A stretch of 47,960 nucleotides of DNA from Smithella sp. SCADC. GTDB taxonomy: Bacteria; Desulfobacterota; Syntrophia; Syntrophales; Smithellaceae. Below the pieces are notes generated by a model. That model saw only the letters and a program-made list of their open reading frames with translations. It was not told the DNA's origin and did not search any database. The stretch spans positions 1-47,960 of the forward strand of contig JQDQ01000180.1 of assembly GCA_000747625.2 (NCBI GenBank). The letters are read 5' to 3'. The translations under genes and the position numbers were made by a program. This document shows, piece by piece, positions 24,865-47,960 of this stretch (position 1 is its first letter; the number at the start of each line of letters is the position of its first letter).

Positions 24865-25020
24865 GGGCTGTTGAAAAACGCTCATCTGTCCCGATAAAAT
24901 CGGGATTGCGCTGCAAACCGCACCGCTCAACGTATATTTATATACGCCTCGCGGTTCAGTTTTTGCGCGCCTTGCACCTGTGATCCCGTATCAAGTACGG
25001 GACAAGCTTTTGAACAGCCC
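24865..25020. repeat. Palindromic intergenic repeat, copy A
   Basis: This 156-bp element starts GGGCTGTTGAAAAACG and ends with a near complement, CTTTTGAACAGCCC. Inside are CGCTCAACGTATA, then TATACGCCTCGCG and TTTTTGCGCGCCTTGC, all shared with copy C. It also carries extra nested hairpins (GTCCCGAT...ATCGGGA and ATCCCGT...ACGGGAC). It lies between two minus-strand genes and codes for nothing. Confidence 0.8.
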
Positions 25021-38069: not shown

Positions 38070-41000
38070 GTGCCTAAACGCAAAGACATAAAGAAAATTC
38101 TGCTTATCGGGTCCGGTCCGATCATTATCAGTCAGGCCTGTGAATTTGATTATTCCGGAACCCAGGCCTGCAAAGCTCTACGCGAAGAAGGTTACGAGGT
38201 TGTATTAATCAATAGTAATCCGGCTACAATTATGACCGATCCGGAAACGGCAAATAGAACCTACATCGAACCCATTACACCGGAAGCGGTGGAAAAAATT
38301 ATCGCCCGTGAGCGGCCGGACGCTCTGCTTCCCACGTTAGGCGGACAAACAGGATTGAACACGGCCGTGGCGCTGGCTGAAAGCGGCGTTCTGAAAAAAT
38401 ACAAGGTGGAAATGATCGGCGCGTCACTCGATGTTATTCATAAAGCGGAAGACAGAGAAAAATTCCGTCATGCGATAGAAAAAATAGGTCTGCGTGTGCC
38501 CCAGAGCGGCTTTGCCCATTCCATGAGCGATGTTTTAAAGATTGCCGATGAAATCGGCTTTCCCCTTATTATTCGTCCTTCCTTTACCCTGGGAGGAACG
38601 GGCAGTGGCGTCGCTTATAACCGTGAAGAATTAATGGACGTAGCCAAAGGCGGTTTGGATGCCAGCATGATTTCGGAGGTCATGATCGAGGAATCGGTTC
38701 TGGGCTGGAAAGAATACGAACTGGAAGTAATGCGCGACAAGGCTGATAATGTTGTCATCATTTGTTCCATCGAAAACTTCGACGCGATGGGTGTGCATAC
38801 CGGCGAATCCATTACCGTCGCGCCCGCGCAAACGCTGACGGACAAGGAATATCAAATCATGCGGGATGCCGCCATTGCTATCATGCGCGAAATTGGCGTG
38901 GAGACAGGCGGTTCCAACGTTCAGTTTGCCGTGCATCCTCAAACTGGCGAAATGATTGTCGTCGAAATGAATCCCCGTGTCTCGCGATCATCGGCGCTGG
39001 CCTCGAAAGCCACAGGCTTTCCCATTGCCAAAATTGCCGCGAAACTTGCCGTCGGCTACACACTGGACGAAATCCCCAACGACATTACCCGCGAGACGAT
39101 GGCCGCTTTTGAGCCGGCAATAGATTATTGCGTCGTGAAAATTCCCCGCTGGACGTTTGAAAAATTTCCGCAGGCGGAAGATTTTTTAACTACTTCCATG
39201 AAATCCGTCGGCGAGACCATGGCTATCGGCCGCACTTTCAAAGAGTCCCTGCAAAAGGCGATTCGTTCTCTGGAAATCGGGCGTTTCAGTCTTGGCCAGT
39301 CTCTGCCGGAGGATTTGAAAGATAAAAAAGAATTTCTTAAAAGCAAATTGATCAAACCCAATTCGTTGCGGCTTTTCTACATTGCCACGGCGATGCAAGG
39401 TGGAATGTCGATAGACGAACTCTATCAATTAACAAAAATAGATCCCTGGTTTTTGCATCAGGTCAAAGAAATTGTGGATGCCGAAGATGAGTTGAAAAAT
39501 TCCGTTCCGTCCGTGGAGTTGCTCCAAGCTGCCAAAAAAATGGGCTTTGCCGACAGGGCGCTGGCAACTTTTTGGAAAATGACGGAGACGGAGATTCGCC
39601 AGTGGCGCGAAAAAGAAAAAATTATTCCGGTATATAAACTTGTTGATACCTGCGCTGCGGAATTTGAAGCCTACACTCCTTATTATTATTCCACCTATGA
39701 AACGGAAAACGAAACCAGGCCTTCGACGAAAAGAAAAGTCGCGATTATCGGCGGCGGTCCCAACCGCATCGGACAGGGAATAGAATTTGATTACTGTTGT
39801 GTTCATGCTTCGTTTGCTTTGCGCGAAGAGGGCGTGGAAAGCATCATGATTAATTCCAATCCTGAAACAGTCAGCACCGATTACGATACATCCGACAAGT
39901 TGTTTTTCGAACCGGTAACGCTGGAAGACGTTTTACATATTTTGCAAACAGAAAAACCCGAGGGAGTAATCGCGCAGTTCGGCGGCCAGACGCCTCTTAA
40001 TCTAGCCAAAGGATTGGAAGCGGCCGGAATAAAAATAATGGGAACATCTCCCGATTCCATTGACCGCGCGGAGAATCGAGACCGCTTTCAGGAAATCGTC
40101 ACCAAATTAAAACTTAACCAGCCGGATAATGACACGGCAATGGATGCGGAAAAAGCGCTTGTGGCAGCCGAACGCATTGGCTATCCGGTGCTGGTGCGCC
40201 CCTCCTATGTATTGGGTGGCCGTTCTATGGAAATTGTCTATGACGCGGAAACTTTACGCGGCTTTATGGGCAAAGCCCTTCTTGTTTCTCCCGGGCATCC
40301 CATTCTTATTGATAAATTTTTAGAGGACGCCATAGAAATAGATGTGGACGCGATCAGCGACGGCCAGACGACAATTGTGGCCGGCATCATGGAGCATATT
40401 GAAGAAGCAGGAATCCATTCGGGCGACAGCGCCTGCATTCTGCCGCCCATGACCATTTCCGCTCCTCTTCTGGATCTGATTAAAAAGCAGACAAAAATGC
40501 TGGCACAGGAATTAAATGTTGTCGGGCTGATGAATATTCAGTACGCCATCAAGAACGGCAAATTATACGTGCTGGAAGTCAATCCCCGCGCATCCAGAAC
40601 CATTCCTTTTGTCAGCAAAGCCATCGGCGTGCCGCTGGCAAAACTTGCCACCAAGGTCATGTTGGGTAAAACTTTAAAGGACCTTGGTTTTACTAAAGCG
40701 CCTCGGCCTAAGCATATTTCCGTTAAAGAAGCTGTTTTTCCGTTCAACCGTTTTCCTGATGTGGATATCCTGCTGGGGCCGGAGATGAAATCCACCGGTG
40801 AAGTCATGGGCATAGACCGGTCTTTCGGTCTGGCTTTTGCCAAATCGCAAATGGCAGCGGGATTCAAAATGCCGACGGGGGGCACTATCTTTATCAGCGT
40901 CAATGATTCTCACAAAGATAAGATTGTAACGATAGCCAAAACTTTTCAGAAAATGGGTTTCAAGATACTGGCGACCAAAGGCACAGCCCTGTACCTGGTG

Positions 41001-41273
41001 GAGCACGGCATTGGCGCCGGGGTTGTTTTCAAATTAAGCGAGGGGCGGCCGCATATTGTGGACTTCATTAAAAACGGAGACATCCAGATGGTGATTAATA
41101 CCAGCATCGGACGTACATCATCGCGGGACGCTTATCACATAAGAAGAGGAGCGCTTACTTATAATATTCTCTACACCACGACCATTGCCGGTGCGCGCGC
41201 ATTGTGTGAAGCGGTAGCGGCGATAAAAGAAGATGATTGGCAGGTATGTTCACTGCAGGAATATCAAAAGTGA
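38070..41273 (+). CDS. carB: Carbamoyl-phosphate synthase large subunit
   Basis: This 1067-residue enzyme has the usual duplicated ATP-grasp halves. The first half opens [20 protein letters not shown] and contains [13 protein letters not shown]; the second has [19 protein letters not shown] and [16 protein letters not shown]. An MGS-like regulatory domain ends the protein and may bind nucleotides or ornithine. The start is GTG 38070. Residues 121-160, which include the ATP-contacting Arg of KAEDREKF, are nearly duplicated in the hydrolase at 45.2-46.0 kb (see findings). CarB itself looks normal here, so it is the source or shares the source. A palindromic repeat starts at its stop codon. Confidence 0.97.
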
Positions 41274-41397
41274 CGACCTCGTAAAAAGTCCATATGCTGC
41301 GTTGCGCTGCATCAGTTGTCGTTGCGACGTACACAAAAAGTACGTCTCACTCCAAATGCTTTGCGCGCCTTGCCTCTGGAGCTTTTTACAAGGCCGT
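41273..41397. repeat. Palindromic intergenic repeat, copy B
   Basis: About 125 bp, from the final base of the carB stop codon. The ends CCTCGTAAAAAGTCC and GGAGCTTTTTACAAGG are near complements. The interior has CATATGCTGCGTTGCGCTGCA, an inner GACGTAC...GTACGTC hairpin, and TTTGCGCGCCTTGCCTCTG. The CATATGCTGCGTTGCGC and GCGCGCCTTGCCTCTG parts are shared with copy C. No coding capacity. Confidence 0.8.
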
Positions 41398-41489
41398 ATA
41401 TATAATTGAAATATTTCGTCACTTGAAGTGATATTTTTAGAGATAATTAATTTTAATACATCCGCATAGGCGGGCTAAAGAGAGGCTAG

Positions 41490-42921: not shown

Positions 42922-43046
42922 ATGGGCTGCTCACAAACGCTCATATGCTGCGTTGCGCCGCAAATCGTAACGCTCAACGTATAAGATATACGCCTCGCGC
43001 TCCGGTTTTTGCGCGCCTTGCCTCTGAACGTTTTTGAACAGCCCAT
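42922..43046. repeat. Palindromic intergenic repeat, copy C
   Basis: This 125-bp element lies 5 nt after the purF stop. The ends ATGGGCTG and CAGCCCAT are perfect complements. The interior contains AACGCTCATATGCTGCGTTGC, CGCTCAACGTATA...TATACGCCTCGCG and TTTTTGCGCGCCTTGCCTCTG. It shares blocks with both copy A and copy B, showing that the three are one family. Confidence 0.8.
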
Positions 43047-43063
43047 GAAATGTAGCATGTGTC

Positions 43064-43093
43064 ATTCCGTGCAAGCGAAGCGCGACACGGAAT
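43064..43093. repeat. Short REP-like hairpin
   Basis: ATTCCGTG (43064-43071) and CACGGAAT (43086-43093) pair across an AGCGAAGCGC-type loop, in the style of GTCATTCC...GGAATCC dispersed hairpins. It follows repeat copy C. Confidence 0.5.
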
Positions 43094-43197
43094 CCAGGAT
43101 TTTAACTTCCACAAAAAATCAAAATATGTTATCATTTTAAACAATTAATCGAATAATTGAGAGTAATTTATTTATATCGCTATCCTTTGGATGACAA

Positions 43198-43518: not shown

Positions 43519-44382
43519 ATGAGAACTATTGAATCAATAATTAAAATTGGCGATTGTTTGGATGTTTTGAAAGATTATCCTGATAATTCCTTTGATCTTA
43601 TTATTACATCACCGCCATATGCTGATTGTAGAGCAAAATCATACGGTGGAGTATCTCCGGACGCTTACGTTCAATGGTTTCTTCCTCGAAGTAAACAATT
43701 TCTTAGAGTGCTCAAACCGACAGGTACATTTATTCTAAACATCAAAGAAAAAGTAATTGATGGTGAACGTCATACGTATGTTATTGACTTAATACTTGGC
43801 CTTAAACAGCAAGGATGGTTATGGACGGAAGAGTTTGTCTGGCATAAAAAAAATTGTCATCCGGGAAAATGGCCTAATCGTTTTCGCGATGCATGGGAGC
43901 GGTGTCTCCAATTCAATAAAAATCGACAATTCCATATGTATCAAAACGCTGTTATGGTGCCAATGGGTGATTGGGCAAAGACTCGCCTGAAACATCTTGG
44001 TACTAATGATGTGATAAGATTCGATTCACAAGTTGGAAGTGGATTCGGAAAGAACATTGCAAATTGGATAGGACGCGATAAAGCATATCCTTCAAATGTA
44101 TTACACTTAGCTACCGAAACAGGTAACAAAAACCATAGCGCTACATTCCCGCGAGCCCTTCCCGAATGGTTTATTAAACTTTTCACAAAAGAGAATGACT
44201 GGGTTTTGGATCCTTTTGTTGGTTCTGGTACTACTTGTGAAGTTGCGCAGCAACTTGGAAGAAATTCAGTTGGTATTGATATTATGAAGGAATACGTTTC
44301 AATTGCACAAAAAAAAGTTTCAGAACAAGTACTTTTGCTTTGCGAAAAAGGAGCCAAATACAATGCCACTAGGAAGAGATGA
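43519..44382 (+). CDS. DNA methyltransferase of a type II restriction-modification system (beta class)
   Basis: This 287-residue methyltransferase has the catalytic motif TSPPYAD at 30-36 before the SAM-binding motif DPFVGSGTT at 231-239, which is the beta-class order. The SPPY form is usual for N4-cytosine enzymes but also occurs in adenine ones. NCHPGKWPNRFRDAWERCLQF is a typical target-proximal segment (beginning near residue 112). The recognition sequence cannot be read. Codon use is clearly more AT-rich than in the purine genes, which suggests acquisition. Its 3' end overlaps the nuclease gene by 20 nt. Confidence 0.9.
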   Translation: MRTIESIIKIGDCLDVLKDYPDNSFDLIITSPPYADCRAKSYGGVSPDAYVQWFLPRSKQFLRVLKPTGTFILNIKEKVIDGERHTYVIDLILGLKQQGWLWTEEFVWHKKNCHPGKWPNRFRDAWERCLQFNKNRQFHMYQNAVMVPMGDWAKTRLKHLGTNDVIRFDSQVGSGFGKNIANWIGRDKAYPSNVLHLATETGNKNHSATFPRALPEWFIKLFTKENDWVLDPFVGSGTTCEVAQQLGRNSVGIDIMKEYVSIAQKKVSEQVLLLCEKGAKYNATRKR

Positions 44383-45133
44383 TATAATAGGGTTCATCGA
44401 ATCTAATATTCAAAAGTTTCACACACGACGATTAGATAATCTTTCCGATCTTAAGTTAAAAAAAATACTTGCCAGAAAAAATCCTTATCTTTTTAAAGCA
44501 AAAAATCAAAATACAGCTCAAGATTTGGTCAAGACTGTCCTTGATGCACATCTTTCATCGCAAGAGGAAGGTATTTTTGGAGGATTTCTTGAGGAGTTAG
44601 CCATCTTTATATGCAGTAAAGTATATAGAGGTAAAAAATCATCTTCCGAAGGAATTGATCTTGAGTTTTCAAAAGAAAAACTCACTTATATTGTATCAAT
44701 TAAATCCGGACCCAATTGGGGCAATAGCCGTCAAATTGCGCGTATGAAAGATGATTTTAAACGTGCCAAGCGCGTTCTTGGAACTAATACAACTGCCGTA
44801 AAAGTAATTGCTGTAAATGGTTGTTGCTATGGCAAAGATGAAAAGCCAGACAAAGGCGACTATTTAAAGCTTTGTGGGCAAAGGTTTTGGGAGTTTATAT
44901 CAGGAGATGAAAATCTATATACCGATATTATTGAACCTTTGGGATATAAAGCAAAAGAAAAAAATGAAGAGTTTGCAGAAGAGTATGCAAAAGTTATCAA
45001 CCGATTTACTCTTGAGTTTGCTATCGAGTATTGTAATCAAGATGGAGCAATCCTTTGGGAAAAACTCGTCAAATTTAATTCAGGAAGATCACCAGAAAAA
45101 GCAAAACGTTACAAAGCTAACAGTCATTGCTGA
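44363..45133 (+). CDS. Type II restriction endonuclease, PmeII-like family
   Basis: This 256-residue nuclease partners the upstream methyltransferase. Motifs KFHTRRLDNL, RKNPYLFKAKN, ETAQ-like TAQDLVKTVLDAHLSSQEE and IFGGFLEELA match, to my recollection, the PmeII family. A PD-(D/E)xK-type core is suggested by SSSEGIDLEF (D99) followed by YIVSIKSGPNWG (K114). The start is ATG 44363 with AAGGAG at 10 nt. An earlier TTG in frame would extend deep into the methyltransferase gene. It should cut DNA at the site that the methyltransferase protects. The pair looks intact and functional. Confidence 0.8.
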   Translation: MPLGRDDIIGFIESNIQKFHTRRLDNLSDLKLKKILARKNPYLFKAKNQNTAQDLVKTVLDAHLSSQEEGIFGGFLEELAIFICSKVYRGKKSSSEGIDLEFSKEKLTYIVSIKSGPNWGNSRQIARMKDDFKRAKRVLGTNTTAVKVIAVNGCCYGKDEKPDKGDYLKLCGQRFWEFISGDENLYTDIIEPLGYKAKEKNEEFAEEYAKVINRFTLEFAIEYCNQDGAILWEKLVKFNSGRSPEKAKRYKANSHC

Positions 45134-45155: not shown

Positions 45156-46049
45156 ATGATAATGAAGATATGCAAAACAAGAATAGCCTTTCTTCTTGTA
45201 GCGGCAATGTTTTTGGGAGGGTGTAATATGCAAAACAGATTTCTTTATTTCCCCGAGCCGATGTGGCCTACCGAGTCAGGGCTTGAATATGAAAATATGA
45301 AGCTCTGGCACGCAACTGCTGATGATTATCAGGGCTTGGTTGCCGCTCATGATACGCCTGCGCCCAATGGCACATTAATTCTTTTCCATGGCAATGGCGG
45401 CACAGCGCTTGACAGGGGATTTTATTTTAAGCCTTTTATGGAGTTGGGTTTCCGCGTAATTTTAGCTGAATATCCAAAGTACGGAGGCCGTCCGGGAAAA
45501 GTAGGAGAAAAGCCGTTTGTTGCAGCCGGATTAGAAACTGTTCGCCTGGCCTATGAGCAATATAAAGAGCCTATTTATTTGGTAGGTGAGTCGCTGGGCT
45601 GCGGTGTTGCTGCCGCTATCGCCAAGAAGACATCTGTTCCCATTGCCGGTATAATTTTAATTACGCCGTGGGATACGCTGGCGTCTGTGGCCAAGTCTTT
45701 GTTTCCTTACCTTCCGGTGCAACTGGTTTTGACTGATAAATACGATAGCATCGGAAATCTTCAAGCGTTTAAAAACAAAATTTCCGTAGTCGGAGCGGAA
45801 CGAGATGAAATCCTGCCCGCATCACGCGATGTAATTTATAAAGCGGAAGACAGAGAAAAATTCCGTCATACGAGAGAAAAAATAGGTCTGCGTGTGCCCC
45901 AGAGCGGCTTTGCCCATTCCATGAGCGATGTTTTAAAGATAGCAGCCGATGTGGTCATCAAAGGCGCAGGTCATAACGACTGGCCGATGTATGCCGAAGT
46001 TTCCCTGTTTAAAGAAATAACCGATTTTGTAAAGGTTGATAAAAATTAA
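45156..46049 (+). CDS. Lipoprotein alpha/beta hydrolase with an internal carB-derived segment
   Basis: This 297-residue protein has a lipoprotein signal (hydrophobic 9-20, lipobox LGGC with C23). An alpha/beta hydrolase domain follows: ILFHGNGG for the oxyanion hole, the nucleophile elbow VGESLGCG (S146), acid D217 in GAERDEIL and H273 in KGAGHNDW. Between D217 and H273, where relatives usually have roughly half the distance by my recollection, residues 225-265 are almost the same as CarB residues 121-160. The frame is kept, so the full chain is made, but folding may be harmed. It lies 22 nt after the nuclease gene. The substrate is unknown; an ester is likely. Confidence 0.8.
   Translation: MIMKICKTRIAFLLVAAMFLGGCNMQNRFLYFPEPMWPTESGLEYENMKLWHATADDYQGLVAAHDTPAPNGTLILFHGNGGTALDRGFYFKPFMELGFRVILAEYPKYGGRPGKVGEKPFVAAGLETVRLAYEQYKEPIYLVGESLGCGVAAAIAKKTSVPIAGIILITPWDTLASVAKSLFPYLPVQLVLTDKYDSIGNLQAFKNKISVVGAERDEILPASRDVIYKAEDREKFRHTREKIGLRVPQSGFAHSMSDVLKIAADVVIKGAGHNDWPMYAEVSLFKEITDFVKVDKN
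45823..45951 (+). repeat. carB-like segment inside the hydrolase gene
   Basis: The core at 45838-45940 matches carB 38440-38542 over 103 nt with 2 mismatches, including a run of 66 identical bases. Weaker matching extends about 15 nt to the left and, after a 3-nt gap, about 7 nt to the right. Both copies are in the same strand and codon phase. Confidence 0.95.
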
Positions 46050-46664: not shown

Positions 46665-47780
46665 TACCTACTTGCATAAGTTCGAAAACTTGTTTTCAGG
46701 TTTTTTGTTTTTCACGCTTACTTTGTGCCACTCAAATGGTTGAGCAGTAATATTATAGGATTCAGCAAAGGCATCGATATGTTGTCTTAGCTGCTTGATA
46801 GAAGTAAAACTTGCACCACGTAGCGATTGTACCTGAAGGATACTAAACCATACCTCTATCTGATTAAGCCATGATGCATGTGTGGGCGTGTAGTGAAATC
46901 TAACGTTCTTGTGTCGGGCAAGCCACTGATCGTTTTTCGGCTTATGCGTCTTGAGATTATCAAGAACTACATGTACTTCCCTGTCGGGCTCTACATCCCT
47001 GATTACTTCATTCATGAAATCTAAAAATTCTCTCCGCCTGCGTCTTTGCGTATGCTTCACCATGACATTGCCTTTCATGATGTCGAGAGCAGCAAATAAT
47101 GTTGTTGTTCCGTGCCTCTTATATTCGTGAGAGAATCCGGTAAGGGATTTTCCATTGGCTAGTCTCAAATACCCCTGCGCCCGTTCCAGCGCCTGTATAC
47201 ATGGTTTTTCGTCGACGGAAATAACCAGGGCTCCTTCTGGCGGCGCAAGATAGAGCCCGACAATATCGGCGGCCTTGGCGGTAAACTCAGGGTCCGTCGA
47301 AATGCACCGGGAGTGCCTGCGTTCAAGACTTATCCCTTTTTCTCTTAGTATCCTCCATACCTGATGAACACTGACATCATTCAATGCCTTTGCAACCAAT
47401 GGCCCGTTCCAACGACAATAACCGGCAGGTGGTGTTTTGTCGAGTACATCCAGTATCCGTTGCTCCGTCGACTTATCATATTGCTGGGGCTTTCCTGGGC
47501 GAAGCAGATCATATAATCCATTGGCGCCCATTTCGAAAAATCGCTTCCGCCATTTACTAACGATGCCCAGCGTAATTTCCATGCTCGTTGCTATATGGTT
47601 TCGACTTTCACCCTTGGCTGAACGGAGGATGATATTTGCCCTGTCTGCATATCGTTTTTCCGTTTTACTCTTCCGCGTCCAACTCTCCAAAAGTGCCCTT
47701 TGCTCATCATCTAGCCTGATCTCTATCGGTTTCGCCATTAGCACTACAACGCCGGTTACTATGGTTCATGCAGGATAATT
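46665..47780 (-). mobile_element. IS630-family insertion sequence
   Basis: A complete IS630-type transposase gene fills the element. The left edge abuts the toxin stop codon, where a CTAG/TA site stands. The ends near 46665 and 47780 share only short blocks (for example ATGCA) when one is read as the complement, so I could not fix the terminal inverted repeats. Boundaries are approximate. Confidence 0.65.
46668..47738 (-). CDS. IS630-family transposase
   Basis: This DDE transposase of 356 residues has an N-terminal helix-turn-helix pair (SRNHIATSMEITLGIVSKWRKRF) and a DDE core: ISVDEKPC, HVVLDNLKTHK and HASWLNQIEVWFS hold the two Asp and the Glu. It appears intact. The start is ATG 47736-47738; a GTG two codons earlier is also open, and neither has a strong ribosome site. 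IS630 elements insert at TA and this copy stands at the end of the toxin gene without breaking it. Confidence 0.93.
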   Translation of the reverse strand: MAKPIEIRLDDEQRALLESWTRKSKTEKRYADRANIILRSAKGESRNHIATSMEITLGIVSKWRKRFFEMGANGLYDLLRPGKPQQYDKSTEQRILDVLDKTPPAGYCRWNGPLVAKALNDVSVHQVWRILREKGISLERRHSRCISTDPEFTAKAADIVGLYLAPPEGALVISVDEKPCIQALERAQGYLRLANGKSLTGFSHEYKRHGTTTLFAALDIMKGNVMVKHTQRRRRREFLDFMNEVIRDVEPDREVHVVLDNLKTHKPKNDQWLARHKNVRFHYTPTHASWLNQIEVWFSILQVQSLRGASFTSIKQLRQHIDAFAESYNITAQPFEWHKVSVKNKKPENKFSNLCK

Positions 47781-47930
47781 CTTCAGCCATTTTTTCTTAT
47801 AAGAGTTTCTGGATTTTTCTTTGTTATGCCGCTGTTTCATAAACCAGGCAATCAGGTCTTGAGGGCTCCTGGAGGTGATTCTTGGAAGAACCACCTCCAG
47901 GAGCCCTCGGATTTCAGGAACAGTAGCCAT
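47766..47930 (-). CDS. Small hypothetical ORF with internal palindrome, probably cut by the IS
   Basis: A 54-codon frame starts MATVPEIRGLLEVVLPRI behind a G-rich sequence and ends in a very basic tail (KEKSRNSYKKKWLKNYPA). Its stop falls near the IS right end, so the original gene may have been longer. I recognise no family. A perfect 17-bp inverted repeat lies inside it. It may be non-coding. Confidence 0.3.
   Translation of the reverse strand: MATVPEIRGLLEVVLPRITSRSPQDLIAWFMKQRHNKEKSRNSYKKKWLKNYPA
47861..47908. repeat. Perfect 17-bp inverted repeat
   Basis: GAGGGCTCCTGGAGGTG (47861-47877) and its exact complement (47892-47908) enclose 14 nt. The stem is very stable. There is no T run next to it, so it is not a clear terminator. 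Confidence 0.85.
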
Positions 47931-47960
47931 TACACATTTTTCCCCCCCATTGCCGCTGCA

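Follow-up and report, generated by a model that had tools for sequence, protein, structure and literature searches.

A stretch apparently copied from carB replaces part of a neighbouring lipoprotein hydrolase gene in a Smithella genome

Introduction

How does a piece of one enzyme come to lie, in frame, inside another that is unrelated to it? Segment sharing between unrelated folds is usually inferred from protein similarity that is faint and old. The locus described here, from the Smithella genome G000, raises the question at the level of DNA, with a lipoprotein hydrolase gene that includes a stretch nearly identical to part of carB. The window that we analysed (47,960 nt) spans all of contig C177, part of a 3.19 Mb assembly in 244 contigs (completeness 94.7%, contamination 8.2%). 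Its relevant features are as follows.

38070..41273, + strand: carB, carbamoyl-phosphate synthase large subunit, 1067 aa, intact, the donor gene (open reading frame; Pfam CPSase_L_D1/D2/D3 and MGS)
38420..38545, + strand: donor segment, CarB residues 118 to ~159 (repeat search, BLAST)
43519..45133, + strand: genes for an N6/N4 DNA methylase and an EcoO109I-type restriction endonuclease, lying between purF and the hydrolase gene (Pfam)
45156..46049, + strand: lipoprotein alpha/beta-hydrolase gene, 297 aa, chimeric, with Ser146, Asp217 and His273 (open reading frame; Abhydrolase_6 and Abhydrolase_1 above Pfam cut-offs)
45818..45943, + strand: carB-derived segment in the hydrolase gene, residues 222 to ~263 (repeat search, BLAST)
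45819..45845, + strand: 5' junction zone, in carB register, with 4 mismatches tending toward old hydrolase bases
45935..45966, + strand: 3' junction zone, carB-like GCCGATG running into ATGTGG, then a one-base loss

Results

A stretch of carB inside a hydrolase gene

The longest direct repeat that a window-wide search reported pairs 38409–38545 in carB with 45807–45943 in the hydrolase gene (137 nt, 91% identity, same strand, spacing 7398 nt). Compared by BLAST with its own genome, the stretch 45780–45960 matched two places, itself and carB 38420–38545 (94% over 126 nt, E = 5.7e-51), and by this comparison chance can be excluded as an explanation of the identity. The core of the match, 45838–45940 against carB 38440–38542, has exactly the two mismatches over 103 nt that the original prediction had counted, at 45870 and 45874, both nonsynonymous, and the longest stretch free of mismatches is 66 nt. 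The prediction was also right in placing the copies about 7.4 kb apart on the same strand and in the same codon phase, hydrolase residue n+104 corresponding to CarB residue n, and in setting the piece between the catalytic Asp217 and His273. The nucleophile is Ser146. The protein-level differences from CarB that it had listed (H-to-Y, A-to-T, I-to-R and an extra Ala) are all real; an L-to-R change at hydrolase residue 224 had escaped it. Its carB match stands, but its bounds (CarB 121–160, hydrolase 225–265) were slightly tight, CarB-like residues spanning 222 to about 263. The donor segment aligns with E. coli CarB from about residue 119, residues 118–166 of the window CarB matching 119–165 of PDB 1a9x chain A.

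The genome also has a diverged second carB paralogue, a 1066-residue open frame on contig C55 (about 0.6–3.3 kb), with 65–74% DNA identity to carB in pieces; similar weaker matches occur in other members of the genus. As a candidate donor this paralogue was rejected, at 37% protein identity over the stretch. The hydrolase protein, compared with its own genome, had carB and this paralogue as its two other matches, and no second hydrolase copy was found in the G000 assembly among the matches listed.

Comparison with relatives points to a replacement

The hydrolase genes of 19 relatives were aligned with the window protein, to which those of the same genus (13) are 76–88% and those of the same family (6) 74–80% identical before the segment. 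All 19 read DEILP-IKHAINLYNALPEGRKRMWI-IKGAGHNDW or nearly so, with 20 residues between the flanks, whereas the window protein passes from DEILP through 46 residues (222–267, ending LKIAADVV) to IKGAGHNDW. Similarly, the catalytic Asp and His are 56 residues apart in the window protein, against 30 in 37 and 29 in 2 of 39 homologues from a second set of genomes, which overlaps the first. From the 20 residues of the relatives and this spacing, the event is a replacement, in which 20 codons were exchanged for 46 with a net gain of 78 nt; this settles, in favour of replacement, the choice between insert and replacement that the original prediction had left to homologue alignment. Homologues that all carry the segment, which it had named as grounds for abandoning the idea, were not seen: the CarB piece was found in 0 of the 39 homologues and 0 of the 19 relatives (overlapping sets). 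Five matches in shorter frames were all carB, no other carrier appeared among the matches listed, and G000 is the only carrier of the chimera among the sampled genomes.

These distributions also bear on two other readings of the segment, a mobile protein-coding element and a domain conserved in both families. Rickettsia palindromic elements are in-frame mobile elements with multiple dispersed copies in unrelated genes, and the segment resembles them in lying in frame inside a gene. It occupies, however, only two places in the genome, one of them carB itself, rather than multiple dispersed sites; the other hydrolases examined lack it, its DNA is nearly identical to that of the neighbouring carB, and the window repeat search reported no inverted repeat of at least 20 nt with both arms in the segment. 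We regard such an element or domain as hardly credible here.

Could carB and hydrolase reads instead have been joined by a chimeric library molecule or by misassembly in a metagenome bin? The fragmentation and contamination of the assembly, the only available genome of its species, and the 66-nt mismatch-free stretch common to both copies would favour such a join. A repeat misjoin should, however, give exact carB, not substituted junctions, a 3-nt addition and a one-base loss with the frame still open. Furthermore, the copy has the private codons of the assembled carB (see below) while departing from it at several sites, and the gene order carA-guaA-carB-purF-hydrolase is shared between G000 and its relatives. 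An artefact is thus improbable. The best matches of the hydrolase are in Smithella and Syntrophaceae metagenome genomes.

Direction and age of the copying

The segment is present in all 20 carB genes aligned at the DNA level and the hydrolases of relatives lack it, so that carB is the source. CarB of G000 keeps its full length, with 97.4% identity over 1067 residues to that of G007, the nearest sampled relative; since carB was left intact, the event was a copy-and-paste.

The codons AGA, ATA and CAG are shared by the copy and G000 carB, and none of them is found in the 19 other carB genes. These shared private codons therefore place the copying in the G000 lineage after its split from G007, and on this evidence the event is younger than the separation from the nearest sampled relative. 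Between these two genomes carB differs with dS 0.34 and dN 0.012 (DNA identity 92.8%), while carB and the copy have no synonymous differences in the central 103 nt. The original prediction had taken the substitutions in the copy as signs that the event was not brand new; the lack of synonymous differences and the shared private codons favour a recent event instead. At the start of the copy, four mismatches lie within 21 nt and tend to equal the old hydrolase sequence.

A carB allele from another strain or species was considered as an alternative donor. The substituted codons of the copy are GCA, CGC, GTA, TAT, ACG, AGA and ATA, and for five of these seven the changed base occurs in 0 of 19 other carB genes (the GCA base is found in 5 of 19 and the GTA base in 2 of 19). 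This donor was rejected because the changed bases are mostly absent elsewhere while codons private to G000 are shared.

Junctions

The 3' junction retains a trace of the ancestral gene. The old word ATGTGG, starting at 45949, survives there one base out of its ancestral frame, and relative to ATGTGGATCATC, found exactly so in 5 of 19 relatives (ATG TGG ATC ATC), one base is lost after it, the frame being restored before the catalytic His. Where G001 reads AAG CGC ATG TGG ATC ATC AAA GGC, the window reads AAG ATA GCA GCC GAT GTG GTC ATC AAA GGC, with GCC GAT G in carB register; measured against G007 (ATG TGG ATA ATC), the junction needs one substitution in addition to the one-base loss. The original description of the flanking hydrolase sequence as intact passes over this frame-restoring loss directly past the 3' junction.

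At the 5' junction, over an interval picked after looking at the data, carB with four random changes equalled the copy in resemblance to the G007 hydrolase in 7 of 3000 trials, and 5 of 81 base choices did so when the positions were kept fixed. Across the 19 relatives the count ranged from 0 of 3000 (G005, G023) to 795 of 3000 (G022), with 391 of 3000 for G015, such that the mosaic signal is weak with several relatives, one of the same genus among them. Mismatches were not significantly clustered, a mismatch-free run of at least 66 arising in 14% of random placements over 113 nt.

Similarity at the donor start is likewise mostly unexceptional. It ranks 30th of 103 carB blocks and 429th of 1501 window blocks in similarity to the G007 hydrolase, and between 3rd (G010, G023) and 72nd (G013) of 103 carB blocks over 14 relatives. 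A homology-guided choice of donor is not supported, the donor start being no top match to the ancestral hydrolase with most relatives. The candidate short matching words are ATG or GATG at the 3' end, alongside the mosaic 5' end.

A probable templated illegitimate replacement

Among the explanations weighed, illegitimate recombination or templated repair building an in-frame chimera, as originally predicted, is the best supported, with the copy, its donor, the replacement and its direction all in its favour. We consider it very probable that a templated illegitimate replacement took place in the G000 lineage, in which about 60 nt of hydrolase sequence were lost and about 125 nt of carB copied in. 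After the split from G007, the hydrolase gene would have lost some 60 nt, encoding the stretch (a helix in the model of a relative) between the end of the Asp217 strand and the His273 strand, and about 125 nt, copied from same-strand carB sequence 7.4 kb upstream, would have taken their place. The copy may have been made from a single strand of carB, by either of two routes. A hydrolase end under replication or repair could have moved to carB as its template and then returned; alternatively, a short single-stranded piece of carB could have annealed at the hydrolase locus and been incorporated, that is, short-patch double illegitimate recombination. The ends would have been joined on a few matching bases, giving the mosaic junctions. 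The one-base loss past the 3' junction may have been part of the event or may have been selected later, since the catalytic His would otherwise be out of frame.

Genomic context of the hydrolase gene

The methylase and EcoO109I-type endonuclease genes lie directly upstream of the hydrolase gene and had no blastp match at E <= 1e-8 in the loci of 12 relatives compared, which invites the idea that a double-strand break made by the adjacent enzyme started the repair. However, RGGNCCY, which we take to be the EcoO109I recognition site, occurs in 0 of 20 hydrolase genes (the window's and those of 19 relatives), and this trigger was rejected as very improbable. The two genes are context, outside the copying event. 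Over the window (1–47960), RGGNCCY is found 10 times against about 31 expected from base composition alone.

The content of the gap between purF and the hydrolase gene differs by genome (loci compared: L100, L101, L099, L104, L102, L103 and L105). In G002 it holds a methylase and a BglII-like endonuclease, in G014 a SEFIR/TIR-domain protein, in G034 a GNAT gene and in G008 and G001, among the part of the gap ORFs that was searched, ORFs that match no Pfam family; in G017 and G033 the hydrolase gene directly adjoins purF. In the window, purF is flanked by dispersed repeats of about 40–135 nt (42924–43058, 41274–41401, 24906–24975 and 43060–43103) that recur on many other G000 contigs, mostly at 75–97% identity. 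Further downstream, a transposase-like ORF (46668–47744), presumably of IS630 type, adjoins a 23-nt near-perfect inverted repeat (47861–47908), and 47739–47960 is 95% identical to the end of contig C114.

Self-comparison of 43 loci totalling 696 kb (the window, 39 loci and three of nine further regions, some overlapping) gave nine repeat pairs of at least 60 nt and at least 80% identity, the window pair included. Of the other eight, five have both copies within ORFs of 80 codons, and in three one copy or both fall outside any such ORF. The 3' end of the hydrolase gene is repeated in L064 (5251–5335/6991–7075, 80%) and that of purF in L066 (4383–4476/7637–7730, 83%), while in L084 parts of recO are repeated just upstream of the hydrolase gene as two pairs (6961–7382/9592–9859, 89–93%). 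The repeats in these three relatives lie 1.7–3.3 kb from their originals, in non-coding sequence or short opposite-strand frames. In L089, about 105 nt at 84% identity (2164–2266/5575–5685) link two ORFs on the minus strand, 211 and 292 codons long, neither of which has a Pfam match; with 25 residues common at the protein level, this is possibly another shared segment.

The chimeric hydrolase as a protein

The predicted product is a lipoprotein of 297 residues whose Ser-Asp-His triad is complete and in which a foreign stretch replaces the usual helix. It retains the family profile, the nucleophile elbow, the Asp and the His of lipoprotein serine alpha/beta-hydrolases, and lacks the helix with H-A-L-L between the Asp and His strands. 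By inspection its N terminus is lipoprotein-like, with what we take to be a lipobox. Ser146, Asp217 and His273 are invariant in the 28 aligned sequences, and of 82 positions that do not vary among 27 relatives the chimera keeps 78; the other four all fall within the replaced stretch, where each residue of the invariant H-A-L-L differs in the chimera.

Outside this stretch there is no sign of decay: in the N-terminal part, G000 has 6 derived nonsynonymous and 23 derived synonymous changes and G007 a comparable 8 and 22, with eight more, four of them nonsynonymous, not assignable to either genome. As the event is young, these similar counts are hardly informative on selection acting on the chimera.

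AlphaFold2 modelled the hydrolase of a relative (L058) with a mean pLDDT of 86.4 and a helix at 221–230, the place in question, and the chimera with a mean of 65.4 and values below 50 for residues 218–264. Part of this fall is expected because no row of the chimera's alignment covers the new stretch (CarB rows were misplaced when included and hence omitted), and low pLDDT is accordingly weak evidence of a misfit. In Foldseek searches the model of the relative best matched an archaeal esterase (E = 2.6e-10), and that of the chimera matched alpha/beta-hydrolases and esterases more weakly (best E = 2.9e-6).

The gene may thus be a real product of the replacement and nonetheless a crippled relic, still open, its active site spoiled and its frame clean through recency alone. 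This reading is compatible with templated replacement and competes only with that of a working chimera. The pLDDT contrast with the relative and the loss of the family-invariant H, A, L and L speak for it, as does the lack of a hydrolase match in 3 of the 16 other genus genomes (G003, G004 and the 71%-complete G006), from which the gene may be dispensable. Set against these are the retention of the triad and the remaining family-invariant residues, the frame-restoring base loss, which lowers the odds of chance openness, and the expected share of the pLDDT fall. We give the relic an even chance. It seems doubtful that the stretch of an ATP-grasp synthetase, pasted between Asp and His with the frame broken and then rescued by the one-base loss, now forms part of a working chimeric enzyme under selection.

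Discussion

The preferred reading, templated replacement of hydrolase sequence by a carB copy, is a known kind of mutation in bacteria with an unusually readable outcome. In events of the short-patch double illegitimate recombination (SPDIR) or template-switch class, a donor in the same genome stays intact, the recipient is replaced and short words mark the junctions; they are RecA-independent and arise from single-stranded DNA. SPDIR was reportedly described by Harms et al. in PNAS in 2016 (doi 10.1073/pnas.1615819114). At the present locus, a donor is identifiable in the same genome (carB 38420–38545, the sole other match in the assembly), and 20 ancestral residues are gone from the recipient while carB is full length. 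As in SPDIR, a short chromosomal stretch appears to have been replaced by intragenomic DNA without long homology, leaving a cluster of differences. Unlike SPDIR, the case is a natural product in an uncultured bacterium, with about 125 nt copied and the frame kept.

The term SPDIR is used in PMC7192050, and PMC8116780 references Harms et al. 2016. Template switching and templated insertions similarly fill a break with a copy of nearby sequence whose ends are joined through a few bases; the present case differs in being bacterial and in the simultaneous loss of the old stretch. Microdiversity loci, according to PMC2884548, are short in-frame replaced segments in genes that are common between bacterial strains and largely ascribed to illegitimate recombination. 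The hydrolase likewise has a short in-frame segment replaced within a gene, but here the donor gene can be named, at a distance of 7.4 kb, and relatives show the ancestral state. Bridging themes (PMC8136508) are segments of 20–80 residues common to domains thought independent. The carB stretch resembles them as a sub-domain segment of similar length in two unrelated proteins; themes are inferred from protein similarity, whereas here the DNA copy is still readable. No identical case was recognised in a literature search that reached few subscription papers.

What seems less usual is that two unrelated enzymes are joined and that the donor, the ancestral recipient and both junctions can all still be read. 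With donor, recipient, ancestral state and both junctions legible at the level of single bases, the question of whether pasting sub-domain segments between proteins can yield working products becomes directly testable on one gene and its relatives. The locus thus illustrates, through a recent event in nature, how a hybrid protein can originate, and it would become important if the chimera folds and works.
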